Shown here: piece by piece, positions 8,162 to 32,770 of the stretch
Position numbering within the stretch: the stretch's first letter is position 1
Layout of the letters: the number at the start of each line of letters is the position of its first letter
NCBI GenBank assembly: GCA_014729795.1
Contig: WJJI01000042.1
Span: 1 to 41,252 of the forward strand
Source of the DNA: Candidatus Moraniibacteriota bacterium
GTDB lineage: Bacteria; Patescibacteriota; Minisyncoccia; CAIUEV01; JAHKAQ01
Direction: 5' to 3'
Length of the DNA: 41,252 bases
Program-made: the position numbers and the translations under genes
The notes under the pieces: generated by a model
Database searches by the model: none
What the model saw: only the letters and a program-made list of their open reading frames with translations
Told to the model about the DNA's origin: nothing

Positions 8162-9883
8162 TTAATCTACAGGAAAAATTTTTATGAGTCGGTCGATTTC
8201 TTTTTTGACTTTGATAATTTGTTTTACGCTAACGATTATTTTCATAAAGTATTTTAAGTCATCAACATTAAGCTTTTTTTTAGTTTTGCGTAAATAGTTT
8301 AGCCATTCCGGAAGAAGATTGACTGAACCAAACTGGTACTGCCAAATAGCAGGTTCAATGCCTTGAAAATATTGATTTTGATTAACATAAACCTTTTTTT
8401 GGTTTTTCTGATAATTTATTTGGGTTAGTTGCCAGTCTTCAAGGCTTTTTGATTGGCTACCACCCACTTTAACCCCCCATTTATCGGGATAATGGAAAAT
8501 TGAGTTGGTTCGATTAAAATCCGTTTTGTTGATAATCATCAAAGAAACCAGCTCTCGACCTTTTTTGATAAGATTTTTGATTAATTGACTGTTGGAAATA
8601 ACCGGTATACGAGGGAGGTAGATCTGGAGTTGTTCTTGATAGCGTTCTCGGTATAGGTTGCTTTGTAAAATAGCAAAAACATAACAAAAGATGTCTTTGG
8701 GGCCAATGGTTTGAATAAGGTTGCCTTGACCATTGATAATAAACTCCAGGGCGGTTTTATGACGAATTTCGCTGATAAACAAAGGGTTAAAGTTGGGTTT
8801 GCGTTCCAAAAAATCTAAATCCGTAACTGAATTTTTAGAATCGATAAAATAATTGTATAAGGGAAAAAAATAGTTCCACTCCGCTAAAAATGGCTTCAAA
8901 GGGCTTTTGGGGTCGTGATTTACAAAGCAAGCGGCGCTGGAAATATCATAACGGCCCGCTGCTCCTTGCAGCATTAGCTCCAAATTGTGGCCAGCTTGTT
9001 TTTTCATCGGGTTTTGGTTATAAATCGGCATAATGTCGGTTAGATCCCAATAGCGAATAAATTCTTCCTCGGCAGTTGTGTCTTTATGTTTAAGAAACCA
9101 ATAAGGGTCTCGGGGTTGGAGTAATTGCCAATTAGTTTGTTTAAAGGACTGAGGATGAAAAATTTTATTTTTAACCTCTTCCATATTAACCGCGTCATCA
9201 TATTTTACCGAGGCTATTCCTTGAAGATTGGCAAACTTTTTTAGCATAATAATGGCTACGATCCCCTCTTTTTTTTCTCTTGAAGCTTGACTAGGGTCAA
9301 ACACGCTGCCCTCCAGATTAAAAACAAACACTTCATCGTAAAAACGTAATATCTTACGTCGATAACTTATAAAATCAGTGTCATTAACAAAGCGGTTATT
9401 AATAATAATCGCGGCCATGCCCAATTGGCTTTTTAATTTATTTTCAGCATAATTTAAGAAATAAGAGTAATTGCTTTTGGTTAAGGTGCCTAAGAAAATT
9501 TTTAAAGTATGGTTTTTCATGGGCGAGCCTTGAGTAAAATCGACAAATTGATCAATAATTGTTTTGTTTAAATCTAGTAATTGAAAATGATCCCGAATGT
9601 GCTTGTTGTAAATTCGGTTAAATTCTTTATCAACAATTTCCTGTCCTAGTACCCGATTTTGAGCTTCAAGGTCCAAATATATTTTTTGAGTAGCTGCTTC
9701 AATGAAAACCTTGGTGCCCGTTACCGGATCAAGTATGCGAACACGTTTGTTAGCGATGCCATTGGAAACCTCAAACTTAACTTTTAGCAAATGATCAATT
9801 GTGTTTAAAAGATAATCAGCTAAAGGTTTGGGCGTATTGCGGATTCTGATTTTGTTGGATTTTGAATTAGGGTTGGCTGCCAT
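8162..9883 (-). CDS. Degenerate type ISP-like DNA methyltransferase/specificity protein, catalytic motifs lost
   Basis: The protein aligns by eye with the methyltransferase and target-recognition half of type ISP (LlaBIII-like) restriction-modification enzymes. It has RNTPKP (15-20) where these have YTPEP. LDPVTGT (51-57) stands in place of the SAM motif DPACGTG. IFLGTLT (129-135) is followed directly by the segment that normally comes after NPPY. GMAAIIINN (155-163) and FYDEVFVFNLEG (181-192) follow. The block PKDIFCYVFAIL with YRERY and LPRIP (395-427) is a strong family signature, and the C-terminus has YVNQNQYFQGI. Motif IV (NPPY), the nuclease and the helicase regions are all absent. The frame is intact over 573 codons, so the protein may still be made, perhaps as a DNA-binding remnant. 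Methylation activity is unlikely. Confidence 0.7.
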   Translation of the reverse strand: MAANPNSKSNKIRIRNTPKPLADYLLNTIDHLLKVKFEVSNGIANKRVRILDPVTGTKVFIEAATQKIYLDLEAQNRVLGQEIVDKEFNRIYNKHIRDHFQLLDLNKTIIDQFVDFTQGSPMKNHTLKIFLGTLTKSNYSYFLNYAENKLKSQLGMAAIIINNRFVNDTDFISYRRKILRFYDEVFVFNLEGSVFDPSQASREKKEGIVAIIMLKKFANLQGIASVKYDDAVNMEEVKNKIFHPQSFKQTNWQLLQPRDPYWFLKHKDTTAEEEFIRYWDLTDIMPIYNQNPMKKQAGHNLELMLQGAAGRYDISSAACFVNHDPKSPLKPFLAEWNYFFPLYNYFIDSKNSVTDLDFLERKPNFNPLFISEIRHKTALEFIINGQGNLIQTIGPKDIFCYVFAILQSNLYRERYQEQLQIYLPRIPVISNSQLIKNLIKKGRELVSLMIINKTDFNRTNSIFHYPDKWGVKVGGSQSKSLEDWQLTQINYQKNQKKVYVNQNQYFQGIEPAIWQYQFGSVNLLPEWLNYLRKTKKKLNVDDLKYFMKIIVSVKQIIKVKKEIDRLIKIFPVD

Positions 9884-14202: not shown

Positions 14203-17200
14203 TTAAAATTCCTCAGGTTCTCTTTTTCTGCGTGCTAAAAGTAACAATCCGCCAAGCGCTCCGGTTATAATTAAAATCGAGAAGACTTTACCGGCTAATG
14301 TGTCCGGCCAGAAAATTGATCCAATTAGGGATCGATTATCGTCATTGTCTTGTGTTTTCTCTTCTTCGCCTTGACCATACTTTTCGTTAAGTTCTTGCTC
14401 GTCAGCGCCGCTGGCTTGATCGTCGTCAGAAGATTCTTCATCGGTTTGATCTTGTGTTTCTTCAGTGAATTCCTGATCGGTTTCGGTTGAGCCTTGTGTG
14501 TCTGTGCCCGAATCATCGCCTGTATCATAAAAAGATGAATCACCACTACCGGTTCCGGCAGAATAACCAGCGGTTGAGTAATAAGTAGCGGCTGCGGTTG
14601 AAGCAGCGTCGGAAGCGTTTTCTTCGTCATCATCATTGTCGTCATTTTCAGCTCGGTCGTCGCCTTCCTCAACTAAAATAATATGGTTAATCGCGATTTC
14701 GGTTTCTACGCCTTGAGCGTTTCTCATCTTAGCATAAACTGCTTTGTTTTCATCTCGATCGCCGGAAAGATGAAAATAAGTAGCATGGTGTTCCTGGCCG
14801 CAAGGATGATAATGTTCACAACTACCGCCAAAGCTGGCCACATAAGGAACCCATTGAGCATCGCTAAAATCATATTCTTGAGAAAAAATAACCTGGGTGG
14901 GCGTGAAATCATCCGGCGGATACAGATCTAAAATCACATCCCGATCATCTGTGTAACGATCGCCATAGTTCATTTCTAGGATAGGATAATATGGGCCAGT
15001 TGATACTGGAGCAGGAGCAATTGAACTGATGATTTCTTGATTAACAAAGTTAAATTCGTGATTGGGGCTATCTATGGTAACCATATCGCCATTGGAAAAG
15101 CTTGTATCTTCCCGTAGTTCTATAAATTCCCAACCATTAATGATTGTTTCGGTTAGGTGGTAGCTTCCGTAAGGGACATCCACGAAATCCACACAACCCT
15201 CAACTCCTTCGGTGTTGCCCGAATAATCATGATTTAAAGAGTAAATTTCAACTTGAAACGAGCCATCATTGTCGCTGTAACCATTATCTAGAATATTAAA
15301 ATCTAGATTGCCGCCGGTATGATTATAGTTGGTAGTGTATTCATGACTATCATTATAAGCTCCCCAATCGATATTCTGATTATTGATTCTTAGCTTTAGG
15401 TAGTACCGGAAGCCTCCGCCTAAATCATCGCCGCTTACCCAAGTAGGATGATTATTACCGTGATAGCTATGTGGATGATTGGGCGGTCTTAATGAATACC
15501 CGGCGTCGGCAATTCCGGCATCGGGTAGTTGTTCCGGCCAAAAAGTATAAGTTCCGCTTGCTCTAATTTCATAATCACCAGCCGGTAAGTTTACTGAGGT
15601 TGTTGAGCCATCAGAGCCGACATCAATACTTTGAGCCAATACCTGATTTGACTCTAGCGACATTTCCCAGCCAGTTAAAGCATTGCCAAGATTATCATGT
15701 TTACAAACAGTAACATCAGCATATTGCATAGCTTGAGGAGAATACGTCACTTGATATTCACAACCTTTGGCGGCTTCAATGTTGCCGGTAGCATCATCTA
15801 ATAATCTATCATCAGCAACATCTTCAGCGCGGGTATGAAAGCAATAAGAGCCCGGGCTGGAAAAATTATAATTAAAAGTACCGGTGTTAGCATCCATCGA
15901 GTCAACTTGATTATAAGCCCCTCCATCAATTGAAACATAAAGTTTGACATTTTTTACCCGGGTATCTGCATCAGAGGAGTTAAAATCAAGATCAATGGTT
16001 GGATCGCTGGTGGTAAGCGGATTGGTTGAGTTTGTAATCTCAGAGGTTGGGTTAATTTGCTCCCTGATTCCAAAACCACCATTATCGGGAATGTATGAAG
16101 CGTAAGCAAACACTCCTGTTCCGTTTATAAAATCATCATATTTAAAATCATCAGGATTTAGGTTGGCAAAATCAGCTTCAGAAACATCATTCCAATTAGA
16201 CCAATCGCTAGTTGAATTATCGGAATAAACGGCTCGGAACCTATGGATGTTGATTTTACCATCATTGAAAACCGGGCTCCAATAACAAACATGAGTAATC
16301 GGATTACAAGTTACTCCTCCGGGATAGTTATTCATGTTAACTAAGCCGAAATTCGGGTTGCTGCCATTTAAATCAGCGCTTCGGTATTGATATTGATAAT
16401 AAGCAACGTCTGGATTAAGGTTTTCGTGAAATTCCATATTAACGGCTCCGTTGCCGGCATCGCTTAATCTAGTTACAAAATTCGGGATCATGGAAGCATA
16501 CCAAGTGGTTGCAAGCTTCCTGGTAGATTCGACAGTAATATTTATTTCGCTATGGGCGTAATTTCCGGCTTTATCTTTGCAGGCAGCCCGAAGTCTCCAC
16601 CCTCCGTCCCAATCATAAGGATCTTGAATAACCGATTCGTCGCCAACATCCAGTTGCCAAGAAAATTCATTACCATTAACGCTTCCTCCGTTAGGGTTAT
16701 TTCTCCTTACATAATGATATTGATAAGGCAGGATGCTATTGGCATCGGTTATAGTTTGGCCTTCGTCCGCTTTGTACCACCAAAAATTAACGTATTCTGA
16801 TTCAGTGTCTCCGCCTTCGCAGGTGGCGGTTAGAGTGGTCGGATCAGTAATGGTATCGCCGTCTAAAGGGTTAACCCAAGTTACAACAGGAGCGGTTAGG
16901 TCATAAACCGAACTGCAGGTGTTGCTCCAAGGCGAAATTGTTTCTCCAAGGTCGTATTTATTGTTATTATTTGCATCCTCAAAAGCTCGAACTTGAGTAG
17001 TGTATTGACCTTCGCCACCGCCGAAAGTGCCCCAGCCGTTTGAATGGTTGTATTGATAGGAATCGGTCAAACGAGCGATTTCGCTTAAATCATTAGGATC
17101 TACAGTGATTATTCTAGAGCTTTGACCCAATAAAAGGTGGCTGCCGTCCGGTCGAACATTATGTCTTATATACTTTACATTGTTTCCCGAAACCTCGGTC

Positions 17201-19956
17201 CAATTACTGACATATCTTTCATTGGAATCAGCTATAAAAGGATTTGAAACATCACTACAGGCGATATCTAAGTTATTCGGAGTGGTGTTTGGACTTGGAT
17301 TGCCTTCATCGTAGCTTGAAGATTGACTTTCAGCATTGCTACCCAATAAAACCGGCGCTTGCAAATCCGCTTTTTTGTATAGATTGCAATAAATATCCCC
17401 GGAGTTGGAAATGGTTACCAGTTCAGCGTTGTTGTCGCGGTAGCCGTTAGGATTGGAGCCGTTGCAGGCAAAGCCTAAAACATTGCTTTCATCCACCCAG
17501 ACATTGCTTGAATCAATTTCTCCAAAAATGTAATCGCCCTCTGCCAGATCAGCGGTTAAAACCCCTGTAGTCGTGTCTCCGGTCGAGCCAACTCTTTGAG
17601 CGCTTTCCCCGCCGGTTGGAACGGGGGAATCAACGTTTAATCCAAGATGACCGATGCCATAACCGTCTTCAAGTTGGCAATTAAGGGCGTTTAAGTCCTG
17701 GCTAGTATTGCCTGAATCGTCAGGTTTAAAATTATTTTTTGTAGCCGGGTCAGCTAAAGAGGCTCCAATCGAAGACGGGCATTTATAGGAACTTACATGA
17801 ATACTGCCGGTATTGTCCAGGTTTTTATTATAAGAAATTTCGCAATAATCGCTCCATTCTGACTCATTGCCGACGGAGTCAAAAGCTTTAACTCTGATTC
17901 TTCTTAAGCCTTCGCCGTTTGGAGCAAAAGAGCCACTTAAATAAGGATCGCTAACCGTTGTTTCCCAATGGTCGGTGAAATTTATCCCATCGCTTGAATA
18001 ATCAATGCTGTAAAGATAGTAATCGATAGGATTTGCTCCCGCTATGCCTGTCCAGTTAACGGTTATGTTTTCACTATCGCTTGCAGCGCCGCAGGATAAA
18101 ACCGTTCCATCAGGTTCTTCAAAACTTAAATTTTTCACAATGGGATTTTTAGTATAGGTTATACTGCATTCGTCGCTCCAATCGCTGGTTGCGGCTTCTT
18201 CATCAGAATCCAGCACATTATCATTATCCGCATCTAAAAAGGCTCTGACCCTGGTTTTGTATTCTCCTTCCACGCCAGTTGCCCCGGAAAATGTTTTGTA
18301 ATTAGTGTATGGACTGGAATAAATTTCATTGCCTTGCCAGGAGGAGCTGCCGGGTTTCATGTACTGTCTTTGATATTTTATTTCGGAATCTCCTGCGGAA
18401 ACATCGCTCCAATGAACCGAAACAGAATTTATGTTGGTTGTTCCGCCGCAGGCGATTTCAACATCGGGTCTCGGAGTCGCATAATCATCGCCGTTATCTT
18501 CATTGTAACCGTAATGTTGTGGAATATCATCAATATCAACACCGACTAGCAAAACCTCATCGGCTATTACATGAGCGTCATCACCGCTGTTATCAACCGT
18601 GGTTAAAACCAACTTTGAATTATCGTTTAAAGAAAATGGACCGCTTCCCTGATCTAATTCAAACCAGCCCGACCATTGACCCGGCGTACCGTCTGTTGAT
18701 TGATCCGCTAGCTTTTCCTGATTGACAAAAAAATTATAATCTGTCCCAGCTGAATCTGTTAAGGTAAAGGGCGAATTAGTCGGTCGGTTTTGATTGGTGG
18801 TCCAACTTATGTAAACTTTGTATAATCCAGCATCAATTGAATCAAACTCCCAGGTCGCGGTTTCGCCCGCATCGGTAAATTCAGGATAATGCACAGTTCC
18901 GTCTTTAAAGCCCCTGTCGCTTTGCTCTATCCAAGGCGTTCCGGTATAATCAGCTTCCTGATTGGTTATTAGGAATATAGTAAAATGATCAAGTCCCTTA
19001 ATTTTAATAACTTTTTTATCCTTTTTGATTTCTTTTTCCTGTTCAACTCTTTCAAAATCATTTTTTTCGTAATCCTTGTCGCCTTTTTCCTCCTCACTGT
19101 AAACCACATCAAGTTCGTCTTCATCGTCAGCATCTTCATAAGGAATTTTTAAGTCGTATTTAAAGCTGCCGTTGGGCATAGTGGAGGTAACCTCCCAGGC
19201 TTTATTGCCTAAAGCTTGCAAGTCCTGATTTGGCGTAAACTCACGAATGGTGATTTTACCGGGTTGTTCAAGATGACTGAATTCAAGCTCAAAACCTGAA
19301 TCTTTATAAGAGTATTTGGTGTCAATAGAGACAGGTTCCAGAGTGGTTATTGAACTATCGGAGTTTTCCTGCCAAACATCACCTGTTGGTGTGGTCTCCT
19401 CTTCCAGTTCTGGTTCTGATTGCTCGGAAACTGCTTGGATTTGTTCATCAGCATCGGCATCAGCGGTTTGAGAAGAGTCTTGCTCTGACGATGTTTCAGC
19501 TTTTTCAGTTTGGTCTTTTTGCTCTTTTTGTTCAGAATTCTGATCGGGAGTAGCTTCAGGACTTGATTCTTGGTCTGTTTGGTCGTTTTCAGTTTGGTCT
19601 GAAGTTTGAGAAGCAGATTGCTCAGCCTCTTCAGAGTTTGTTTCTTGATCCGCTTGCTCTGGTTCTTCTGGTTCTTCTTGTTCTTCTTGTTCTTCTGGTT
19701 CTTCTGGTTCCTGAGTTTGATCTTGATCAATTGATTCTTGATCAGATTCGGAAGATTCAGTTTGAGAATCTTGATCTTGTTCGTTCTCTGATGAATCTTC
19801 CTCGGCTTGATTCTCTTGTTGCTCTTGAGCTTCTTCTTGGTCTGATTGTGAATCGGATTCTGCTTCTTCCGGGACCGAACCAGTGGCTAAAACCGGCGTG
19901 GCTAATTGGAAAATCATAGCCAACGCCAATATAGCAGCTGACCAACTTTTAACCAT
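14203..19956 (-). CDS. Giant exported surface protein (~1917 aa): acidic stalk, golvesin-like and FN3/Ig-like modules, C-terminal anchor
   Basis: I choose the ATG at 19956 because AGGAGGGG lies just upstream and MVKSWSAAILALAMIFQLA then forms a normal signal peptide. An ATG at 19998 in frame would place that site inside the gene. After the signal come about 165 residues of Glu/Gln/Ser/Asp-rich sequence, a beta-domain ending KGLDHFTIFLITN, and a golvesin C-terminal-like domain (TATWEFDSIDAGLYKVYISW). Several FN3/Ig-like domains follow (repeated SEWSDYC-type strands), then SpaA/prealbumin-like modules (GSYHLTETIINGWEF, ending FVNQE). The module YYPILEMNYGD, DDRDVILDLYPP, ENKAVYAKMRNAQG and an acidic stalk end in SLIGSIFWPDTLAGKVFS, a membrane helix and ARRKREPEEF. 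A surface stalk or adhesin is the likely role; no enzymatic domain is seen. It has its own promoter and terminator. Confidence 0.8.
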   Translation of the reverse strand: MVKSWSAAILALAMIFQLATPVLATGSVPEEAESDSQSDQEEAQEQQENQAEEDSSENEQDQDSQTESSESDQESIDQDQTQEPEEPEEQEEQEEPEEPEQADQETNSEEAEQSASQTSDQTENDQTDQESSPEATPDQNSEQKEQKDQTEKAETSSEQDSSQTADADADEQIQAVSEQSEPELEEETTPTGDVWQENSDSSITTLEPVSIDTKYSYKDSGFELEFSHLEQPGKITIREFTPNQDLQALGNKAWEVTSTMPNGSFKYDLKIPYEDADDEDELDVVYSEEEKGDKDYEKNDFERVEQEKEIKKDKKVIKIKGLDHFTIFLITNQEADYTGTPWIEQSDRGFKDGTVHYPEFTDAGETATWEFDSIDAGLYKVYISWTTNQNRPTNSPFTLTDSAGTDYNFFVNQEKLADQSTDGTPGQWSGWFELDQGSGPFSLNDNSKLVLTTVDNSGDDAHVIADEVLLVGVDIDDIPQHYGYNEDNGDDYATPRPDVEIACGGTTNINSVSVHWSDVSAGDSEIKYQRQYMKPGSSSWQGNEIYSSPYTNYKTFSGATGVEGEYKTRVRAFLDADNDNVLDSDEEAATSDWSDECSITYTKNPIVKNLSFEEPDGTVLSCGAASDSENITVNWTGIAGANPIDYYLYSIDYSSDGINFTDHWETTVSDPYLSGSFAPNGEGLRRIRVKAFDSVGNESEWSDYCEISYNKNLDNTGSIHVSSYKCPSSIGASLADPATKNNFKPDDSGNTSQDLNALNCQLEDGYGIGHLGLNVDSPVPTGGESAQRVGSTGDTTTGVLTADLAEGDYIFGEIDSSNVWVDESNVLGFACNGSNPNGYRDNNAELVTISNSGDIYCNLYKKADLQAPVLLGSNAESQSSSYDEGNPSPNTTPNNLDIACSDVSNPFIADSNERYVSNWTEVSGNNVKYIRHNVRPDGSHLLLGQSSRIITVDPNDLSEIARLTDSYQYNHSNGWGTFGGGEGQYTTQVRAFEDANNNNKYDLGETISPWSNTCSSVYDLTAPVVTWVNPLDGDTITDPTTLTATCEGGDTESEYVNFWWYKADEGQTITDANSILPYQYHYVRRNNPNGGSVNGNEFSWQLDVGDESVIQDPYDWDGGWRLRAACKDKAGNYAHSEINITVESTRKLATTWYASMIPNFVTRLSDAGNGAVNMEFHENLNPDVAYYQYQYRSADLNGSNPNFGLVNMNNYPGGVTCNPITHVCYWSPVFNDGKINIHRFRAVYSDNSTSDWSNWNDVSEADFANLNPDDFKYDDFINGTGVFAYASYIPDNGGFGIREQINPTSEITNSTNPLTTSDPTIDLDFNSSDADTRVKNVKLYVSIDGGAYNQVDSMDANTGTFNYNFSSPGSYCFHTRAEDVADDRLLDDATGNIEAAKGCEYQVTYSPQAMQYADVTVCKHDNLGNALTGWEMSLESNQVLAQSIDVGSDGSTTSVNLPAGDYEIRASGTYTFWPEQLPDAGIADAGYSLRPPNHPHSYHGNNHPTWVSGDDLGGGFRYYLKLRINNQNIDWGAYNDSHEYTTNYNHTGGNLDFNILDNGYSDNDGSFQVEIYSLNHDYSGNTEGVEGCVDFVDVPYGSYHLTETIINGWEFIELREDTSFSNGDMVTIDSPNHEFNFVNQEIISSIAPAPVSTGPYYPILEMNYGDRYTDDRDVILDLYPPDDFTPTQVIFSQEYDFSDAQWVPYVASFGGSCEHYHPCGQEHHATYFHLSGDRDENKAVYAKMRNAQGVETEIAINHIILVEEGDDRAENDDNDDDEENASDAASTAAATYYSTAGYSAGTGSGDSSFYDTGDDSGTDTQGSTETDQEFTEETQDQTDEESSDDDQASGADEQELNEKYGQGEEEKTQDNDDNRSLIGSIFWPDTLAGKVFSILIITGALGGLLLLARRKREPEEF
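19663..19716 (-). repeat. Short-period coding repeat (Glu-Glu-Pro/Gln)
   Basis: Tandem variants of GGTTCTTCT and TGTTCTTCT on the plus strand encode an EEPEEQEEQEEPEE-type stretch in the N-terminal stalk of the giant surface protein. Such 9-bp arrays can change length by slippage without shifting the frame. Confidence 0.7.
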
Positions 19957-19969
19957 TTTGAATACTCGT

Positions 19970-19977
19970 CCCCTCCT
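19970..19977 (-). promoter_or_regulatory. Strong Shine-Dalgarno site of the giant surface-protein gene
   Basis: AGGAGGGG on the minus strand lies about 12-15 nt before the ATG at 19956. It decides the start in favour of 19956 rather than 19998. It stands out because the other starts I inspected in the window have no recognisable Shine-Dalgarno sequence. Confidence 0.65.
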
Positions 19978-20099
19978 GTAATTTTTTTTGATTATCATTT
20001 AATTTAGATTACTTATTTAAATAATTTAAAACTTTTTAATTTTTAATAAAAAAAATTAACCTTGGTTTTATAAATCGAATAGGTTGTACAGTTCAAGCT

Positions 20100-22511: not shown

Positions 22512-23570
22512 TTAAGCCTCTTTTTTCCAGTTTTCTGGTCGAAGTTTGCGCACTTGCTCTCCGGTTCGCCACATTTCACTATCATGCATGACTTTTAATT
22601 CTTGATTGAGTTTTTCTCGATAATCAGGTCGGCTATTTTTATCTAAAACGATTTCCGCTTCCGTGCCTTGTTTAACGCTTTGATAAAGCTTTGCAAAAAC
22701 CGGCTCCACCGCCTCTTTGAAACGATCTTTCCAATCCAGCGCTCCTCGCTGAGCCGTTGTTGAACAATTGGCATACATCCAATCCATGCCTTTTTCTCCC
22801 ACTAGTTTGATTAGACTTTGAGTAAGCTCTTCAACCGTCTCATTAAAAGCTTCGCTGGGACTATGGCCATGTTTTCTCAATTCATTGTATTGAGCCTCCA
22901 TGACTCCGGCTAAGGCGCCAAGCAGAATCCCCCGCTCCCCGGTTAAATCACTGTAAACTTCTTTTTCAAAGGTGGTGGGAAATAAATAGCCGGATCCGAT
23001 GCCGATACCGATAGCCTTGGCCTTTTCTTCAGCTTTACCGGTATAATCTTGATACACGGCATAGCTGCTGTTAATGCCACTACCTTCCAGATAATTACGC
23101 CGTACCGTTAAACCCGAGCCTTTTGGCGCTACTAAAATAACATCGATGTTTTTTGGCGGCACAACCCCGGTTTGCTCTTTGTAAGCGATTGAAAAACCAT
23201 GAGAAAAAAACAAAGTCTTGCCGGGAGTTAAATATTTTTTAATCACGGGCCATTGATCTTTTTGCCCGGCATCGGAAAGCAAGTACATAATAAAGGAGGC
23301 TTTTTCACAAGCGGCTTCGATCTCAAAAAGAGTTTGGCCTGGGACCCAGCCATCCTGTTTGGCCTTTTCCCAGGAGTCTCCGCCGCGGCGCTGACCCACG
23401 ATCACGTTAAAGCCGTTGTCGCGCAGGTTTAAAGCTTGGCCCGGACCCTGGACGCCGTAGCCAATGACCGCGATAGTTTCATTTTTGAGGGTTTGGCGAG
23501 CTTTTTCTAAAGGATATTCTTCTCGGGTGACGACAGTTTCTTCAACGCCGCCGAAATTAATTTTTGCCAT
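22512..23570 (-). CDS. ilvC: Ketol-acid reductoisomerase (fungal/Bacteroidetes-like class I)
   Basis: Second step of valine and isoleucine synthesis: isomeroreduction of acetolactate/acetohydroxybutyrate with NAD(P)H. The Rossmann motif is GYGVQGPGQALNLRDNGF with the cofactor loop VGQRRGGDSW. The metal-binding C-domain shows SDLTGERGILLG, HSPSEAFNETVEE and STTAQRGALDW. The 352-residue chain and the motifs LLSDAGQKDQWP and VRKLRPENW resemble yeast mitochondrial Ilv5 and Bacteroidetes enzymes more than typical 330-residue bacterial KARIs. The start overlaps the upstream nitroreductase gene by 14 nt, and the ABC ATPase gene starts right after its stop. Cofactor preference cannot be settled by eye. 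Confidence 0.95.
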   Translation of the reverse strand: MAKINFGGVEETVVTREEYPLEKARQTLKNETIAVIGYGVQGPGQALNLRDNGFNVIVGQRRGGDSWEKAKQDGWVPGQTLFEIEAACEKASFIMYLLSDAGQKDQWPVIKKYLTPGKTLFFSHGFSIAYKEQTGVVPPKNIDVILVAPKGSGLTVRRNYLEGSGINSSYAVYQDYTGKAEEKAKAIGIGIGSGYLFPTTFEKEVYSDLTGERGILLGALAGVMEAQYNELRKHGHSPSEAFNETVEELTQSLIKLVGEKGMDWMYANCSTTAQRGALDWKDRFKEAVEPVFAKLYQSVKQGTEAEIVLDKNSRPDYREKLNQELKVMHDSEMWRTGEQVRKLRPENWKKEA

Positions 23571-24156
23571 GTTTTTTTGGGTTAATGATTAAATCTTGAA
23601 GTCTAATTTTGGGAACATGATGATGATCGTTTTTGTCTCGGTAATATTTGGTTGACTGACTCGCTTTGATGTTTTCTAAAACAACCTTTTCTCCGGGTTT
23701 GCCAAGCGCAACAACCAGACCGATTTCATAAGTTGATGGGATTTTAAGTAGTTTAGCCAGCTTTGGTTTGTTGATGGAAGCTAACATACAACCAACTAAA
23801 CCTTGCTCCACTGCGCCTAATAGAATTGATTGAGCGGCTATGCCGATATCAAAATTAACATTAGCGCCTAAAGGATGAGCGATTTCTTGATCATAATTTA
23901 TAATAATGTAAGCAGAAGGAGTTTGCTCGGCTTGAGGACCGGGCCAGTTTTTTAAATTCATAGCCCAGCCCAAGCAACTGAAAATCCGGGCATTGGTTTG
24001 TTTGTCCCAACTTAAATAATAACGAAGTGGTTGCAGGTTTCGAGAGGAAGCGGAAAGCCTGGCCAGGTTGACCAATTTTTTGAGTAGGGAGCGGTCGATT
24101 TTTGCCCGGTGATAGCGACGATAAGAACGATTTTTTTTAATCAATTGAGTAAGCAT
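23557..24156 (-). CDS. Nitroreductase-family flavoprotein
   Basis: A 199-residue protein of the FMN nitroreductase fold. The N-terminal RSYRRYHRAKIDRSLLKKLV and SASSRNLQPLRYYL form the FMN-binding start; NFDIGIAAQSILLGAVEQGL and the late EIGLVVALGKPGE are family features. The substrate is unknown. It sits inside the ilv operon between ilvN and ilvC, 10 nt after the ilvN stop, and overlaps ilvC by 14 nt, so it is almost certainly co-expressed with valine/isoleucine synthesis. A role there is inference; it may simply be embedded. Confidence 0.85.
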   Translation of the reverse strand: MLTQLIKKNRSYRRYHRAKIDRSLLKKLVNLARLSASSRNLQPLRYYLSWDKQTNARIFSCLGWAMNLKNWPGPQAEQTPSAYIIINYDQEIAHPLGANVNFDIGIAAQSILLGAVEQGLVGCMLASINKPKLAKLLKIPSTYEIGLVVALGKPGEKVVLENIKASQSTKYYRDKNDHHHVPKIRLQDLIINPKKHGKN

Positions 24157-24166
24157 AAATATATTT

Positions 24167-24655
24167 TTAAAGCTTTAAAGCGATTAAACCGCTTCTAACC
24201 AGTTTTATAACATTTTTTTGAATATCAATGCCTTGGAGCAGTTTTTCAATGGCGCCGCCTTGTCCTAATAATTCATAAACGGGGTTGCCGTCAATTTCAT
24301 TGATGATTCTAACATTTATATCGTTAACTGTGCATTTTTTGAAAATGTACTCTTCAAGCTGGTCTTTTTTGGCAATTAATAAAACCAGTTCTTTGTCAAT
24401 AACATCTTTTGGGTGAACAACTTCGGCTTCAAGAACTTCGATTAAGCTATTGAGCTGATTGACAATATTTTTTATTCGAGCTTCTTCCTTCCAGAAAACC
24501 ATGGTTATTTGTGAAATCCCTGTTTTATGCGTGGTGCCGACGGTTAAACTTTTTATGTTGAATCTTCTTCTTCGGCAAAGGGAAGCAACCCTGCTTAAAA
24601 CTCCGGGTTGATCTTGAACTTGAAGAATGACAATTTGTTGATTTCTTGTGGTCAT
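24167..24655 (-). CDS. ilvN: Acetolactate synthase regulatory (small) subunit
   Basis: A 162-residue regulatory subunit. The N-terminal ACT domain is seen at about 8-80 (ILQVQDQPGVLSRVASLCRR, FNIKSLTVGTT, ISQITMVF), and the C-terminal ALS_ss domain has VLLIAKKD and VYELLGQGGAIEKLL. It makes the catalytic subunit sensitive to feedback by valine. It lies 2 nt after the ilvB stop, the usual IlvB-IlvN order. Confidence 0.95.
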   Translation of the reverse strand: MTTRNQQIVILQVQDQPGVLSRVASLCRRRRFNIKSLTVGTTHKTGISQITMVFWKEEARIKNIVNQLNSLIEVLEAEVVHPKDVIDKELVLLIAKKDQLEEYIFKKCTVNDINVRIINEIDGNPVYELLGQGGAIEKLLQGIDIQKNVIKLVRSGLIALKL

Positions 24656-24657
24656 GA

Positions 24658-26352
24658 TTATTGATTTCTTTTAATAATGGTATCTTTAAGGTTGTTGCCA
24701 GGCGGTACCATAGGAAAAACGCAATCTTCTTCTCCGATAATGAATTCCATGAAAAAGCTTTGTTTTTTATCTAGCGCCGCTTGTTTTATAATTTTTTGGG
24801 CTTTTGGCCAATCCGCGGCTCGCTCAGCCTTGATGTTATAGGCTTGAGCTAAGGCGATAAAATTTGGGTTAACCAGTTTGGTGGCGCAATAATTTTTTTT
24901 GAAAAACATTTCTTGCCATTGTCTGACCATACCCAAATAACCATTGTTAAGCAGAACTATTTTAATTGGCAACTGGTGCTCCATGATAGTGCCTAACTCT
25001 TGAATATTCATTTGAATGCCGCCATCGCCCACGATAGCCCAGACTTGAGCCCTGGGATCGGCAAATTGAGCGCCAATAGCGGCGGGTAAACCATAGCCCA
25101 TTGAGCCTAAACCCCCGGAACTGAGAAGCTGATTGGGATTTTGAAAATTGTAAAACTGAGCGGCCCACATTTGGTTTTGCCCAACATCAGAAGCGATAAC
25201 GGCTTGGCTTTTGGTTTGTTTATCGATTTCTTTGATAATGTCTTGAGCCATTAAGTGTTTGGTTTTTTGGGCGCGGGTGGCTTTCTTAACCAGAGATTGT
25301 CGATGATCTCGGCTCCAGGTGGCAACTTTAGCCAACCAGCGTTCATGTTTTTTGGCCGGAAGATTTTGATTCAAACGTTTAAGAATTTGTTTACAGTCTC
25401 CGGGCAAAGCAACATCAACCAAAGTATTTTTGCCGATTTCGGCCGGATCGATATCTATGTGAATCACATTAGCGTCTTGAGCGAATTCATCAATTTTACC
25501 GGTAATGCGATCATCAAAACGCAAGCCAATACCAATAATCAGATCAGCGTTATGAACCGCATAATTTGCCCAAGCCATACCGTGCATTCCAAGCATGCCA
25601 ATACATAATGGATGGCTTTGAGGCAGAGATCCAATACCTAAGAGAGTGGAAATAACCGGAATTTGCGAGGTTTCAGCCAATTGTTTCAATTCGGTCCAAG
25701 CTCGAGCGATTAAAACCCCGTGACCGGCAATAATAACCGGGCGAGCTGATTTTTTGATTAAATCAACCGCTTGATCAACGCTTGTTTGCTTTGGCTCTTT
25801 AGGCAGTTGATAACCCGGTAGATTAATATTTTGAGGATAATTAAACTCCTTGAGATTTTGTTTGAAAATATCGCCGGGAATATCGATGTGCACTGGCCGG
25901 GGTCGACCTGTGGAGGCTAAATGAAAAGCATGTTTTATGGTTTGCGGCAATTCTTTGACGTTTTCCACAAAATAATTGTGCTTGACTATGGGTTGGGTAA
26001 TCCCGGTAATATCAACCTCTTGGAAAGCGTCTGTGCCGACCATATCCCGATCAACTTGACAGGTAATGGCTACCATGCCCACCGAATCCATGTAAGCATT
26101 GGCAACCCCGGTTATTAAATTAGTGGCCCCGGGACCGGATGTGGTTAGACATACGCCCGGGCGACCGGTAACGCGATAATAAGCGTCAGCCATCATAGCG
26201 GCTCCTTGTTCGTGACGAGGCAAAATATGCTTAATCTGAGGATAATCTTTAAGTTTATCATGTAAGGCAATGGTTTTGCCGCCCGGATAACCAAAAATTA
26301 AATCTACTTTTTCCTTAATCAGAGATTTTAATAAAATATCGGCGCCAGTCAT
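24658..26352 (-). CDS. ilvB: Acetolactate synthase catalytic (large) subunit
   Basis: A ThDP-dependent enzyme that condenses two pyruvates, or pyruvate and 2-oxobutanoate. The N-domain has FGYPGGKTIALHDKL and the catalytic Glu in LPRHEQGAAMMADAY, then GVCLTTSGPGATNLITG. The central FAD-type domain has VIIAGHGVL. The C-terminal ThDP domain has SSGGLGSMGYGLPAAIGA and the metal motif GDGGIQMNIQEL through LLNNGYLGMVRQWQ. The 564-residue length is normal. It overlaps nothing and is 2 nt before ilvN. Confidence 0.96.
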   Translation of the reverse strand: MTGADILLKSLIKEKVDLIFGYPGGKTIALHDKLKDYPQIKHILPRHEQGAAMMADAYYRVTGRPGVCLTTSGPGATNLITGVANAYMDSVGMVAITCQVDRDMVGTDAFQEVDITGITQPIVKHNYFVENVKELPQTIKHAFHLASTGRPRPVHIDIPGDIFKQNLKEFNYPQNINLPGYQLPKEPKQTSVDQAVDLIKKSARPVIIAGHGVLIARAWTELKQLAETSQIPVISTLLGIGSLPQSHPLCIGMLGMHGMAWANYAVHNADLIIGIGLRFDDRITGKIDEFAQDANVIHIDIDPAEIGKNTLVDVALPGDCKQILKRLNQNLPAKKHERWLAKVATWSRDHRQSLVKKATRAQKTKHLMAQDIIKEIDKQTKSQAVIASDVGQNQMWAAQFYNFQNPNQLLSSGGLGSMGYGLPAAIGAQFADPRAQVWAIVGDGGIQMNIQELGTIMEHQLPIKIVLLNNGYLGMVRQWQEMFFKKNYCATKLVNPNFIALAQAYNIKAERAADWPKAQKIIKQAALDKKQSFFMEFIIGEEDCVFPMVPPGNNLKDTIIKRNQ

Positions 26353-26384: not shown

Positions 26385-28055
26385 TTAGGATTGGCTTTTT
26401 AAGACCGCTCCTTGAGCAGCGCTGGTTACCAATTGTTGGTATTGAGCTAACCAGCCTGATTTAAATTTGGATTTAGGCGGTAGCCATTTCCGCTTTCTTT
26501 TGTTTAATTCAGCTTTGCTAACTTGAACATTGATTTTTCTTTTCGGTAAATCAATCTTGATTAAGTCGCCATTCTGGATTAAGGCAATGACGCCGCCTTG
26601 TTGAGCTTCGGGGGAAACATGACCTATGCTAATTCCACGAGTGCCGCCTGAAAAACGACCATCAGAAATTAAGGCAATTTTGTCTCCCAAGCCTTTGCCA
26701 GAAATGGCTGCGGTTAACGCCAAAGACTCTCGCATGCCAGGACCGCCCTTGGGGCCTTCATATCGTACGATCAAGACATCGCCGGCTTTAATTTGGTCTT
26801 GTTTAAACGCTTGCATGGCTTGGCCTTCACCATCAAAAACTTTTGCTTTGCCAGAAAAACGTTGAAGATTGCTTGAAATAGCGCCCACTTTAATCACACA
26901 GCCTTGTTCGGCTAAATTACCCTTAAGAATAAAAATACCCCCTTGTTTGCGATACGGTTTTGTTTTCGAACGAACAACGTCTGGTAGAAACACAGGAGAT
27001 TGTTTTGCAATAGCCTGAGTTGAGCTTAAATTTACAGTAGGGTTACTTTCGATGTCGGATTGAAGACGGTTTAAAACCGCGGGAATGCCGCCAGCAGCTT
27101 CCAGATCTTCCATCATGTAATCTCCGCCGGGTCTAAGGGAAGTGATTTGGGGAATTTCATGGCTAATTTTGTTAAAAACCTCTAAGTCAATCGGTACTTC
27201 GGCGGCGTGAGCTATGGCCGGGATGTGCAGAGTGGTGTTGGTTGAACCGCCCAAGGCTAGATCAACGCGAATGGCATTGCGAATGGCCTTTTTATTGAGA
27301 ATTTTCCTGGCAGTCAAGCCCTTTTTAACCAAAGTAACAACCCGCTCTCCGGACTCGTAAGCAAGGCGGGCTTTTTTAGCAGAAGATTCCATAGCAGTAG
27401 CGCAGCCGGTCAAGCTCATGCCCATTACCTCGGTTAAACAATTCATAGTGTTGGCTGTGTATAACCCTTGGCAGGAACCTCCGCCGGGGCAAGCTTCGCA
27501 CTCGATTGCTTCTACTTGTTCTTTGGATATTTTACCAGCATAATATTTACCTACTGATTCAAAGGTGTCTCGCACTAAAGAAAGTTTTTTTTGCCCTTGA
27601 AAAAGGCCGGAACGCATTGGTCCTGCGGTAACAACAACCGTGGGCAAGTCTAACCGAGCTGCGGCCATCAACATACCAGGGGTAATTTTATCACAATTGG
27701 TAAGCAACACTAAACCATCTAATTGATGGGCGTTGGTTATGGACTCAACCATATTGGCGATCAAATCACGGGAGGGCAAAGAATAATGCATGCCGCCATG
27801 ACCCATAGCAATGCCGTCGCAAATGCCCGGCACCGAGAATAAAAAAGGGACACCGCCGCCGGAACAAACTCCTTGTTCGATTTTCCTTTCCAAAGAGCGC
27901 ATGTTAATGTGGCCCGGAACTAAATCGGTGAAAGAACTACAAACTCCGATAAAAGGCCGGTTCATTTGATTTTTACTCACACCGGTTGCGTACAGCAAAG
28001 CTCGATTGGCGGTACAATCAACTCCTTTTTTTATTTGATTAGATCTAGTTTTCAT
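26385..28055 (-). CDS. ilvD: Dihydroxy-acid dehydratase
   Basis: Third step of valine/isoleucine synthesis: dehydration of dihydroxy acids to 2-oxo acids by an iron-sulfur enzyme. The N-terminal [20 protein letters not shown], the cluster cysteines in [19 protein letters not shown] and [21 protein letters not shown], and the C-terminal [21 protein letters not shown] are all present. At 556 residues it is the short, [2Fe-2S]-type length; the cluster type is inferred from length only. It lies between ilvE and ilvB in the operon. Confidence 0.95.
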
Positions 28056-28079: not shown

Positions 28080-29021
28080 TTATTTTGAAACCCTAATTGG
28101 CGTTAGCCATGAGGCATATTTTTGATCGCGTCCTTGCACGATATTAAAAAATAAATCTTTGATTTTGCGAGTCATAGGCCCAAGCTTACCATTGCCTATT
28201 AACCTTTGATCAACCGATTTAATCCAACTAACTTGAGCGGCGGTACCGGTAAAAAACAATTCATCGCTAGCATAAAGCTGAGAACGATCAAATTTACGTT
28301 CTTGCGTTTCAAAACCAAGCTCGTTTTGAGCTAGATGAAGGATGCTTCTTCGAGTTATACCCGCTAGGTTGTTGGCTTCAAGCGGCGGAGTGTACAAAAC
28401 TTTATTTTTAACCATAAAAATATTGGCGCCGCTACCCTCACAAACGCTACCATCGGGATTCATCAAAATAGCATCATCGTAACCGTTGTTGGTGGCTTCA
28501 TATTTAGCTAAGGAGGAATTTACGTAGAGCCCGGTGACTTTGGCTTTCACGGAAATGGAATTATCAGGAGTTCTTAACCAACTGGAAACCATGACTTTTA
28601 TGCCTTTGCTGGTGTCTAAATATTCCCCCAGCGGCTGCATATAGATTGACATTTGATCATTAGCCCGAGTAAAAGTGGGAACAATGGTCGGGTCGGCTGA
28701 ATAGACATTGGGTCGATAATAACAATTAGTTTTAACTTGGTTCTTTTTGGTTAGATTGGTGATGATCTTTTTAAATTCAGCATAACTCATATTCCACTTA
28801 AAAGGAATGATTTTAACTGCGTCCAGCATACGATTATAGTGATCTTGAAGACGAAAAACATTAACGGTTTGGCTCACAGGTTCATAATAGCCCTTGATAC
28901 CTGCAAAGATTGCTTGTCCATATTGGAAAGCCTTAACAGTAATAGGAATTTTGGCCTTTTCCAGCTTGGTGACTTTGCCCTCAAAGTAGGCGTAAGGATA
29001 GGGTGGGTCAAGTTTTTTCAT
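28080..29021 (-). CDS. ilvE: Branched-chain amino acid aminotransferase (class IV)
   Basis: A PLP-dependent fold-IV transaminase, the last step to valine, isoleucine and leucine. PYPYAYFEGKVTKLEKAKI at the start, FQYGQAIFAGIKGY, RLQDHYNRML, the PLP-Lys region YVNSSLAKYEATNNGYDDAI, CEGSGANIFMV and LAGITRRSILHLA are diagnostic. The C-terminal ELFFTGTAAQVSWI is normal. It is the first gene of the operon and is preceded by the attenuator at 29111-29222. No leu genes or threonine deaminase are visible in the window, so only the valine route is complete here. Confidence 0.95.
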   Translation of the reverse strand: MKKLDPPYPYAYFEGKVTKLEKAKIPITVKAFQYGQAIFAGIKGYYEPVSQTVNVFRLQDHYNRMLDAVKIIPFKWNMSYAEFKKIITNLTKKNQVKTNCYYRPNVYSADPTIVPTFTRANDQMSIYMQPLGEYLDTSKGIKVMVSSWLRTPDNSISVKAKVTGLYVNSSLAKYEATNNGYDDAILMNPDGSVCEGSGANIFMVKNKVLYTPPLEANNLAGITRRSILHLAQNELGFETQERKFDRSQLYASDELFFTGTAAQVSWIKSVDQRLIGNGKLGPMTRKIKDLFFNIVQGRDQKYASWLTPIRVSK

Positions 29022-29110: not shown

Positions 29111-29165
29111 AAATTAAAAAAACCGCCGGATAGGCGGTCAGCTTTACACAGCAAAACTAACCACC
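29111..29165 (-). promoter_or_regulatory. Transcription attenuator of the ilv operon (antiterminator/terminator switch)
   Basis: On the minus-strand transcript, ACCGCC (29133-29138) and GGCGGT (29122-29127) pair around a 5-nt loop. A U7 run and further U-rich sequence follow: an intrinsic terminator 90 nt before ilvE. Immediately after the leader-peptide stop, GGUGGUUAG (29157-29165) can pair over nine consecutive positions, including G-U pairs, with CUGACCGCC (29133-29141). It would thereby sequester the 5' arm of the terminator. A ribosome that reaches the stop would cover the first arm and allow termination; one stalled on the Ile/Val/Leu codons would leave it free. An outer stem (GUGUAAAG with CUUUACAC) can enclose the terminator in read-through transcripts. 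Confidence 0.75.
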
Positions 29166-29222
29166 TTATGGGGTCAACACGATGATTTTCACCAATTGTC
29201 GCATATTTTTGCTGGCAATCAT
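29166..29222 (-). CDS. ilv leader peptide (18 aa)
   Basis: ATG at 29222 to TAA at 29166-29168 encodes MIASKNMRQLVKIIVLTP. A shorter product of 12 residues would start at the internal ATG (29204). Six of the seven codons in LVKIIVL specify Leu, Val or Ile, just before the stop. This is the composition expected of a leader that senses charged branched-chain tRNAs. It lies about 30-50 nt after the predicted transcription start and directly before the antiterminator arm. No Shine-Dalgarno sequence precedes it, as for most genes here. Product function as a peptide is not expected. Confidence 0.7.
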   Translation of the reverse strand: MIASKNMRQLVKIIVLTP

Positions 29223-29261
29223 TGCTGGTCGATTAAGTCTTATTGATCTTTTTGTGATTAT

Positions 29262-29290
29262 AAGATAGCTGATCTAAATAAAATTGTCAA
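29262..29290 (-). promoter_or_regulatory. Sigma70-type promoter of the ilv operon
   Basis: Minus-strand TTGACA (29285-29290), a 17-nt spacer, then TATCTT (29262-29267). A perfect TATAAT overlaps at 29257-29262 but at 22-nt spacing. Either gives a start near 29250-29255, with the leader peptide beginning a few tens of bases later. The promoter begins 20 bp after the stop of the upstream gene. Confidence 0.65.
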
Positions 29291-29309: not shown

Positions 29310-30374
29310 TTATTTTTGCAGCTCGGCTCCGTGAATATAGAATTCATTGATTAATCTTTCCACCTTTTCAAATTTACCGGTGAGAATAAATCGGCGATAA
29401 AAAAAGCTAATCAATAAATTCAAAAAGAAGAGAATACCGGGTAGTAAAAACAGGATTTTAATAACAGTGAGTAAAAATTGATACTCGGTTGAATCTTGAA
29501 AGTTATAACTGAACGCATTTTGATCAATAGAGGAGCTGAGAGGAAAATAATATATCAATACAAAACTCAAACTTAGGATTAAGTAAAAAATGGTTAAATT
29601 AAAAATAAAAAATTTAAATTTAACTAATAAATGGGGTAGGGCTTGTTTTTCCAACTTGATTAAAGACTGCTCAACTTCTCGGTTGGCATCGGTTGGTTTT
29701 TCGCCAAAAAGCTGAACATAGCGGTTAGGGATAAAGATTTTTTTGGGTCGATATAAATACCACAACAACTCCCCGACTTCCAAACCTTGTTCGGTGATGG
29801 CAATAGCGCCGTTGGTCTTTGTCGCAAAGCCCTTGGAAACAAGATTGGCAAAAATTTGATCAATACCGCAGTTTAAGATTTCATTTTGTGAAACCAGGAA
29901 TTTGTGTAATTTGTCTTGGGTTTTACCCTCTAAAGTTTGAATGTTTTCCGGAAAAGCTTTTTTGATAACTTCTCGCTCATTAACATCGGCTTCAAGATAC
30001 TTTTCTTTAATGGAGCGCAGCTCGGTTCTAATTTCTTCAGCCGGTTTTTGCTTGACTTTGTTTTTTTCTTCTTCCAGCTCCATGTAAGTATATTCTGGAT
30101 ACATTTGCGGGATGGAATCCAGATATCTTTGGCGGTATTTTTCTTCTTCGCTTAGGAAGTTGCTTTTTTGAATCGCGTTGCTAAGGTTTTGATGAAAACA
30201 ATAACTTAAAAAAAGGATCTTTTTTTCAATTTCCCAGCTAGGCAGTTGGTGTTGCGAATTTTTACCGCCTTGGGTAATGATTTTTAAACGGCTAAAATAA
30301 CTTTGATTTAACTTCTCAATAATTGAGTAAGTTTTTGAGGTTTTTAAAAACGGTAAGTTGAGCAAAAAATCCAT
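29310..30374 (-). CDS. Unknown protein: winged-helix-like segment plus two C-terminal membrane helices
   Basis: I do not recognise this family. It has 354 residues. The central part is charged and probably helical (residues about 70-150, many Glu/Lys). A segment around 175-205 (IDQIFANLVSKGFATKTNG followed by ITEQGLEVGELLW) looks like a MarR/PadR-style winged helix. Two hydrophobic segments of about 25 residues lie near the C-terminus (FIFNLTIFYLILSLSFVLIY and LFLLPGILFFLNLLISFF) with a short polar tail. It could be a membrane-tethered regulator, but DNA binding is not shown. It lies directly upstream of the ilv promoter and downstream of the Trm9-like gene on the same strand, 37 nt from it. 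Confidence 0.6.
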   Translation of the reverse strand: MDFLLNLPFLKTSKTYSIIEKLNQSYFSRLKIITQGGKNSQHQLPSWEIEKKILFLSYCFHQNLSNAIQKSNFLSEEEKYRQRYLDSIPQMYPEYTYMELEEEKNKVKQKPAEEIRTELRSIKEKYLEADVNEREVIKKAFPENIQTLEGKTQDKLHKFLVSQNEILNCGIDQIFANLVSKGFATKTNGAIAITEQGLEVGELLWYLYRPKKIFIPNRYVQLFGEKPTDANREVEQSLIKLEKQALPHLLVKFKFFIFNLTIFYLILSLSFVLIYYFPLSSSIDQNAFSYNFQDSTEYQFLLTVIKILFLLPGILFFLNLLISFFYRRFILTGKFEKVERLINEFYIHGAELQK

Positions 30375-31095: not shown

Positions 31096-31159
31096 GAATT
31101 GATGGTTTCCAAAAATTAATGTTAATTTGATTGATCAGCTTAAAATAACATATTTAGCA

Positions 31160-32770
31160 ATGATAAAAAAGGCTTTGGATAATTTAATAACTAAAATTTC
31201 TGAGATTGAACATGCCGACGAGCAAACGCTTAAAAAGCTAAAGCTTGATACAGCAAAAAAATACCGAATAGACACGCCAAGAAACGAAGCGATAAGAAAT
31301 CGCTATAATCAATTATTAAAGGCGGGTAAATTGAAGGCGGACCAAAGGCTAGAGAATTTATTGATTCAAAAAAAAGTACGCAGCTTGTCTGGAGTAAGTG
31401 TGGTCGCGGTTTTAACTAAGCCTTATGCTTGTAAAAATAATTGTTTGTATTGTCCAGATGAACAAGGTATGCCAAAAAGTTATTTGTCTAATGAGCCAGC
31501 GGTTATGCGAGCGATTAGGTTGGGGTTTCGGCCTTTTAAACAAGTTCAAAAAAGGATTGAAATTTTACAGTATAACGGACACGACACATCAAAAATCGAA
31601 TTAATAGTAATGGGCGGTACTTTTGCTCACTTGCCCAAAAAATATCAATTTTGGTTTGTGGCTAACTGTTATCGAGCCGCTAATGTTTGGGCAAACAAAG
31701 GAAAAAAACAGATTCCCTTGAGTTTAAGCTTTGAACAAATAAAGAAAAAATTGGAGCTGGAAAAAACCGCTAACATAACCGCGGCTAAAAGAATAGTGGG
31801 TTTAACCCTGGAGACTCGGCCTGACACTCTTGATTTAAAAGAATTGTTGAAATATAGGGAAATGGGCACAACAAGAATTGAAATTGGAGTCCAATCAATC
31901 TTTAATCGGAATCTAAAGAAGAGTCAACGAGGTCACGGGGTGCAAGCAACAAAACAAGCCACGAAATTGATGAAAGATTTGGGGTATAAAATTAATTACC
32001 ACATGATGCCGGGTTTACCTGGCTGGACTGAAAAAAAGGATCTGGAAATGTTTAAACAGCTTTTCCATAAACAAGACTTTCAGCCTGACATGTTAAAAAT
32101 ATATCCTTGCGTTGTGGTGGCTAACGCTCCCTTGTATCGATTATGGCGGCGGGGTAAATATCGGCCATACACTAATGAAAAGTTGGAAAGCTTGCTTTTA
32201 AAGATTAAGAAGATGATTCCGGAATACGTAAGAATTACTAGATTAATCAGAGATATACCCACGGTTTCAATTAAAGCAGGCCCGGACATACCGAATTTAA
32301 GACAAAAATTAAAATCAAGAAAAATTCAGTGTTGTTGTATTCGTTGTCGGGAGGTAGGAAGGTTTGCAAAAATTGATAATGAAAAAATAAAAATTGAACG
32401 TATTGACTATCAAGCATCAGGGGGGAAAGAAATTTTTTTACAAGCAGTAAGCGGCAAAAATAAAAAACTGCACGCTTTTTTGAGACTAAGAAAACCGGGG
32501 CAAGCTTTAATTAAAGAATTACAAGCATGTTCGATAATTAGAGAACTGCACAGTTATGGTAAAGTGGCGCCAATTGGAAAAACCGAAAAACACACCTCTC
32601 AACACAAGGGTTTGGGCAAGCAACTGATTAAAAAAGCTGAAAAAATCACCAAACAAGAATTTGGCTTGAATAGAATTGCGGTTATAGCAGCTTGGGGAAC
32701 TATCGCCTACTATAGAAAAGCCGGATTCAGGCTAAAAAAGCTGTATATGGTAAAAAACTTATCAAGATAG
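31160..32770 (+). CDS. elp3: Elp3-like tRNA uridine-34 carboxymethyltransferase (radical SAM + GNAT)
   Basis: The full Elp3 architecture is visible. A basic N-terminal tRNA-binding region leads to a radical-SAM cluster motif C-x3-C-x2-C (KPYACKNNCLYCP; cysteines 91, 95 and 98 from this start). The next block is EPAVMRAIRLGFRPFKQVQ, then IVMGGTFAHLP, GLTLETRPDTL, RIEIGVQSIFN and YHMMPGLPGWT. A Cys-rich zinc site CCCIRC follows. A C-terminal GNAT domain has HTSQHKGLGKQLIKKAE and AYYRKAGFRL. Elp3 uses acetyl-CoA and SAM to form cm5U34 in tRNA. Bacterial and archaeal Elp3 can work without Elp1/2/4-6, and none of those are here. An in-frame TTG at 31127 would add 11 residues; the ATG at 31160 is preferred. 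The gene converges with rodA. Confidence 0.92.
   Translation: MIKKALDNLITKISEIEHADEQTLKKLKLDTAKKYRIDTPRNEAIRNRYNQLLKAGKLKADQRLENLLIQKKVRSLSGVSVVAVLTKPYACKNNCLYCPDEQGMPKSYLSNEPAVMRAIRLGFRPFKQVQKRIEILQYNGHDTSKIELIVMGGTFAHLPKKYQFWFVANCYRAANVWANKGKKQIPLSLSFEQIKKKLELEKTANITAAKRIVGLTLETRPDTLDLKELLKYREMGTTRIEIGVQSIFNRNLKKSQRGHGVQATKQATKLMKDLGYKINYHMMPGLPGWTEKKDLEMFKQLFHKQDFQPDMLKIYPCVVVANAPLYRLWRRGKYRPYTNEKLESLLLKIKKMIPEYVRITRLIRDIPTVSIKAGPDIPNLRQKLKSRKIQCCCIRCREVGRFAKIDNEKIKIERIDYQASGGKEIFLQAVSGKNKKLHAFLRLRKPGQALIKELQACSIIRELHSYGKVAPIGKTEKHTSQHKGLGKQLIKKAEKITKQEFGLNRIAVIAAWGTIAYYRKAGFRLKKLYMVKNLSR

Follow-up and report, generated by a model that had tools for sequence, protein, structure and literature searches.

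The ilv operon in the 41,252-nucleotide stretch of Candidatus Moraniibacteriota DNA analysed here (the window) is very probably controlled by a classical ribosome-stalling leader-peptide transcription attenuator, as judged from the modelled folding of its leader RNA. All of the sequence elements of such a switch, together with two mutually exclusive folds, are present in the window, and leaders rich in the cognate amino acids recur in relatives. To our knowledge, next to nothing is known of how CPR bacteria regulate their genes. The original prediction took the host to be CPR-like, and its genome (G000) agrees with this: it is small (1.08 Mb at 93% completeness; relatives are mostly 0.5-1.3 Mb) and has no match to uL30, whose loss is a known CPR trait. 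Of the 221 genomes of the phylum that were sampled, 217, G000 included, are without uL30, which is present in 13 of 14 controls. Two genomes of family f129, G402 and G421, do encode it, unlike almost every other member sampled; G402 is also large, at 2.0 Mb, and this lineage may be early-branching or differently placed.

The genes behind the attenuator lie on the minus strand in the order ilvE-ilvD-ilvB-ilvN-nitroreductase-ilvC. The first, ilvE (branched-chain aminotransferase, 28080-29021), matches both TIGR01122 and PRK06606 above cut-off, and above-cut-off matches also identify ilvD (dihydroxy-acid dehydratase, 26385-28055; TIGR00110), ilvB (acetolactate synthase large subunit, 24658-26352; TIGR00118), ilvN (acetolactate synthase small subunit, 24167-24655; TIGR00119) and ilvC (ketol-acid reductoisomerase, 22512-23570; TIGR00465). 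The nitroreductase-family protein (23557-24156, minus strand) is encoded between ilvN and ilvC both here and in G002, a relative of the same order. Upstream of the operon, on the same strand, is an ORF of 354 aa (29310-30374) that matches no known (Pfam) family. Three other genes of the window were noted: an Elp3-type tRNA-modification radical SAM/GNAT gene near the ilv region (31127-32770, plus strand; TIGR01211 above cut-off), a 573-aa protein with a Type ISP restriction C-terminal specificity domain (8162-9883, minus strand), and a 1931-aa ORF with Golvesin_C and SpaA-like domains (14203-19998, minus strand), which is probably a surface protein.

The promoter, the leader ORF with six of seven consecutive Leu/Val/Ile codons and the pairing arm directly after its stop codon, all named in the original prediction, were each located on the minus strand. 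The predicted promoter is of sigma-70 type (29262-29290), with TTGACA at 29290-29285, a 17-nt spacer and TATCTT at 29267-29262; it matches at 10 of 12 positions, a score equalled by 0.7% of resampled upstream sequences, and is separated from the leader ATG by 39 nt. The leader ORF (29166-29222, minus strand) has 18 codons and encodes MIASKNMRQLVKIIVLTP. Its codons 10-16 read TTG GTG AAA ATC ATC GTG TTG (Leu-Val-Lys-Ile-Ile-Val-Leu), so that 6/7 specify Leu, Val or Ile, and GGUGGUUAG begins immediately 3′ of the stop codon. No Shine-Dalgarno sequence precedes the ORF. This is no argument against its translation, because nearly all genes of this genome lack one; a Shine-Dalgarno-like core is found at 3.1% of its long ORFs and at 2.7% in shuffles. 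A weak promoter-like match (TTTACA-17-TAAACT, 29110-29082, minus strand) was also seen between the terminator and ilvE; from its sequence and its position 3′ of the terminator it could bypass the attenuator.

When the leader was folded, the two alternative stems expected of an attenuator (2:3 and 3:4) were obtained. Arm 2, the 5′ half of the antiterminator (29151-29166, minus strand), starts on the final base of the stop codon, and arm 3, the 3′ half (29132-29147), includes the 5′ arm of the terminator. They pair over 16 uninterrupted positions (29166-29151 with 29147-29132), some of them G-U, with an energy of -22.7 kcal/mol. The pairing itself had thus been correctly foreseen and its extent had not; the nine positions originally given form the outer part of the stem. 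The intrinsic terminator hairpin, GACCGCC-UAUCC-GGCGGUU (29121-29139, minus strand), has 7 bp and -11.1 kcal/mol, is followed by a U run at 29120-29116 and ends 100 nt before ilvE. Bases 29139-29133 are common to the 16-bp antiterminator and the 7-bp terminator, and the two are mutually exclusive. A further hairpin of the protector or pause type (1:2; 29157-29177, minus strand) is formed by the end of the leader ORF and the start of arm 2, with 8 pairs and -7.2 kcal/mol. The 145-nt stretch as a whole folds unusually well; only 1 of 200 dinucleotide shuffles folded better (z -3.1).

The effect of a ribosome on these folds was modelled by folding the RNA 3′ of a ribosome placed on the leader, the footprint being assumed to reach 13 nt, counted from the first A-site base; the model is thermodynamic and considers equilibrium only. 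With the ribosome stalled at any of codons 10-15 (L10-V15), the antiterminator reached 0.99 and the terminator 0.00; with the ribosome at the stop codon, the values were 0.01 and 0.97. In the model, therefore, switching depends on ribosome position. The ribosome-free RNA gave the antiterminator at 0.98 at equilibrium, despite the 8-bp 1:2 hairpin. Basal control would therefore need either co-transcriptional 1:2 pairing or efficient translation of the leader.

These properties suggest the following sequence of events. RNA polymerase would start from the promoter at 29290-29262 with a ribosome trailing it on the leader ORF. Were charged Leu, Val or Ile tRNA scarce, this ribosome would stall at codons 10-16 and leave arm 2 (29166-29151) free to take arm 3 into the 16-bp antiterminator; transcription would then continue into ilvE-D-B-N-nitroreductase-ilvC. 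When the tRNAs are charged, the ribosome would reach the stop codon and mask arm 2 over its first ~10 nt, so that arm 3 folds into the terminator and the transcript ends near 29115. The 1:2 hairpin could form before arm 3 is synthesised and may act as a pause or protector. We infer from this that the promoter is active, that the leader is translated with stalling and termination in vivo, and that ribosome and polymerase are coupled.

A genome-wide background was compiled from 1.06 Mb of G000 on both strands, leaving out ~17.6 kb of contig C50, and in it short ORFs combined with terminator-like hairpins gave 926 pairs. Among the pairs that passed any residue-enrichment filter, the window site has the strongest duplex of arms 2 and 3. 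Switching with ribosome position could be scored for 814 of the 926; the window site ranks 4th and is the only Ile/Val/Leu-rich pair (6/7) with a switch score of at least 0.8. The leu attenuator of E. coli, the sole E. coli control open to modelling, showed no switching. The fold model is therefore not a necessary test, since this control fails it too. The best Phe-rich match in the same genome was dropped, as its hairpin sits within a downstream coding ORF.

The original prediction had called for a comparison of ilvE upstream regions, and this is provided by G002. Among the nine genomes of the order examined, only G000 and G002, which belong to different genera, have ilvB above cut-off, and both have an attenuator before ilvE. 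The ilv operon of G002 has the same gene order. Upstream of it are a TTGACA-17-TATTTT promoter, a leader rich in Leu, Ile and Val (MKKINSITTGTFLSLIVVVEST) and the arms GUGGCCGGUUUU and GAACCAGGCCAC, with arm 2 one base past the stop codon and arm 3 common to the terminator. Neither the leader peptide nor the arms have evident sequence in common with those of the window. Therefore, the pairing has been maintained across many changes: G002 keeps an ILV-rich leader and both the 2:3 and the 3:4 stem in changed sequence. In the model, a stalled ribosome gave 0.98 for the antiterminator and 0.00 for the terminator, and one at the stop codon 0.00 and 0.94, respectively; in the untranslated RNA the terminator was favoured (0.90).

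The search was then widened to the phylum, requiring a short ORF enriched in cognate residues, a terminator 5-80 nt past its stop codon and arm pairing of at most -10 kcal/mol, all within 1.2 kb upstream of the gene. The counts that follow are lower bounds, because the scanner overlooks the E. coli thr and ilv terminators. Such a combination with ILV residues was found at 3/13 ilv loci, namely those of G000 and G002 and the ilvB of G402 (MKKQLALVLSLIINTPTGV); at the other 10, including the operons of G189, G439/G478 and G444/G457, no such element was found within 1.2 kb upstream. Five of 28 leuA/cimA-like loci have one with Leu or Ile residues. The leaders are MQKQLLLLELLLLRD in G691, MKTINQSLLLLGLFTCFPLGG in G440, MQRNFILRLLPVLLLRAEGRLRA in G660 and the Ile-rich MTSFHRQFIAIISIIISQPLGGRPTL in G614; the fifth, in G512, is doubtful. 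The gene behind MTSFHRQFIAIISIIISQPLGGRPTL matches leuA only below cut-off and, from its sequence, may be a citramalate synthase. One with Thr/Ile residues precedes 4/11 thrA-like loci (G000, G002, G444 and G457), not all of which are independent, as G444 and G457 are of one genus and have identical arms; their leaders, MNAAKIIITTTTTTTIM in G444 and MNKFALIITTTTTTTIM in G457, resemble textbook thr leaders. By the joint criteria no attenuator was found at any of 20 trpE or 14 hisD loci, and a scan of the leuA of G000 found none.

In resampled sequence the expected number of matches was 0.00 for the ilv, leu and thr classes, and off-target residue sets gave few matches, at no more than two loci per class. 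Switching in the model was clean for the ilv leaders of G000 and G002 and the thr leaders of G002, G444 and G457; it was partial or absent for G402, G691 (partly), G440, G660, G614 and the thr leader of G000. Taken together, the same design recurs before ilvB, leuA, citramalate-synthase-like and thr genes across several families of the phylum, and in most cases the leader residues are cognate.

Several other elements were seen in the course of this survey. A candidate second attenuator in G000 is the Thr-rich leader ORF MFKASRQKTTRLTGTTARLRPV with its terminator (L161:825-893, contig C33, plus strand), where modelled switching is less clean; behind it lie thrA, an ORF in the thrB position, thrC, an aminotransferase gene, leuA, leuC, leuD and leuB. 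The distance from leader ATG to first gene is 264 nt for this thrA and ~190 nt for hom of G002. A Ser-rich ORF, MFNLKSSQSSIMISKPSSF, on the minus strand of L204 (leader from ~661; G000 contig C43) has at its stop codon an arm of antiterminator type; a strong terminator follows, with a citramalate synthase gene directly behind it, and the modelled switch is poor. An ILV-rich ORF before ilvB in G439 was dropped because it lies inside an apparent coding gene, and a His-rich ORF in G709 because it failed the joint criteria. The His-rich ORFs upstream of hisD in L082, L083 and L088 were likewise dropped, being the C-termini of ORFs that look TrpR-like. By eye, ORFs resembling regulators of the TrpR family (YerC/HisR-like) stand ahead of hisD in several genomes of the phylum (L082, L083, L084, L086 and L088), with His-rich tails in L082, L083 and L088 and a terminator-like hairpin 25-30 nt past the stop codon in L082, L083 and L086.

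The 354-aa ORF upstream of the leader stops on the same strand just ~170 nt ahead of the terminator, and the hairpin might be the plain 3′ terminator of that gene, the leader ORF and the alternative pairing then being accidental; terminator-like patterns indeed arise readily by chance, 3 being found in this region against 2.9 expected. We regard this as very unlikely. G002 has another gene upstream, an ORF that is HAD-like by sequence, and yet leader ORF, antiterminator and terminator again stand before ilvE. The attenuator therefore travels with ilvE, which counts against the hairpin being a mere terminator of whatever lies upstream. Furthermore, in both genomes a TTGACA-17 promoter separates the leader from the upstream gene, and an ILV-rich ORF combined with a terminator and strong pairing is expected 0.00 times in resampled sequence, the site being extreme genome-wide.

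A terminator and antiterminator in this arrangement would fit equally a T-box or a metabolite riboswitch acting on the same terminator with the leader ORF untranslated, and T-boxes are reported to control many amino acid genes of Firmicutes (PMC2494555). Such a reading is barely credible here. No Rfam family, the T-box covariance model included, reached its gathering score within the window, and a permissive Rfam search of a 401-nt region returned just four unrelated families far below their cut-offs. The RNA ahead of arm 2, at ~90 nt and mostly ORF, is too short for a T-box, and a riboswitch would leave unexplained both arms that start at the stop codon of an ORF and residues that match the pathway in independent cases. 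It is also highly improbable that the leader is translated but that read-through follows translation in general, for example through polarity or Rho, rather than branched-chain aminoacyl-tRNA. The equilibrium folding does depend on ribosome position whichever the codon; against this, the leader residues track the pathway (ILV before ilv, Leu before leuA, Ile before the citramalate-synthase-like gene and Thr/Ile before thr), and off-target residue sets are almost empty at the same loci. Attenuation by stalling at branched-chain codons, the interpretation first proposed, is thus supported by the switch model, by G002 and by the cognate leaders elsewhere in the phylum.

This is very probably classical attenuation, in a phylum where it is apparently undescribed so far. 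The original prediction knew of no description in Patescibacteria, and a search of the open-access literature found none in CPR or Patescibacteria. According to a 2010 survey of 302 species, only Proteobacteria and Actinobacteria had until then provided demonstrated leader-peptide systems; the survey itself contributed one from Firmicutes (PMC2965389), and His attenuators of Firmicutes followed in a 2022 study (PMC9413887). The range first given, Proteobacteria and some Actinobacteria, was therefore right as far as it went and incomplete, three reports placing such systems in Firmicutes too (PMC2965389, PMC9413887, PMC5794164).

If the switches work as their sequences indicate, reduced and mostly uncultured cells would sense aminoacyl-tRNA through coupled transcription and translation, and the mechanism would reach another large bacterial branch beyond Proteobacteria, Actinobacteria and some Firmicutes (PMC2965389), without Shine-Dalgarno sequences. 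We think it somewhat probable that leader-peptide attenuation is a widespread, perhaps old, layer of control in amino-acid-making Patescibacteria, one that operates essentially without Shine-Dalgarno sequences and responds to Ile/Val/Leu, Leu, Ile and Thr at the least; it would imply ribosomes close behind RNA polymerase. The attenuator may have been retained, as first suggested, rather than re-evolved or acquired. Being short and self-contained, the switch is suited to reporters or to a search for leader transcripts in existing metatranscriptomes, and attenuators of this kind can aid annotation of the amino acids that such cells truly make.

Among known systems, T-box ilv/leu leaders likewise sense tRNA charging and act on a terminator and antiterminator, but they have no leader ORF, and the window has no T-box match. 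The leucine-rich attenuator peptide of the Staphylococcus aureus ilv-leu operon is reported as another case before a branched-chain operon outside Proteobacteria (PMC5794164); there the attenuator is layered with CodY repression. The ilvBNC attenuator of Corynebacterium (ilvB-II motif) is reported likewise to control an ilv operon through an upstream ORF and alternative hairpins (PMC10272879, PMC11857589); the likeness is one of layout, and the first gene is ilvB there and ilvE here. In comparison with the enterobacterial attenuators, arm 2 of the window begins at the stop codon, the antiterminator is a single unbroken 16-bp stem, the leader lacks a Shine-Dalgarno sequence, and the genome is far smaller and of another phylum. 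There is no detectable sequence similarity to ilvL, leuL or thrL and no Rfam leader family matched here, as expected because these elements have no conserved sequence. In composition, the thr leaders of G444 and G457 (..IIITTTTTTTIM) are similar to thrL. In overall design, the window element is like those of the enterobacterial ilvGMEDA (ilvL), leuABCD (leuL) and thrABC (thrL) operons: a promoter, a short leader ORF with runs of cognate codons, and a terminator and antiterminator with a common arm, with the biosynthetic operon behind them.
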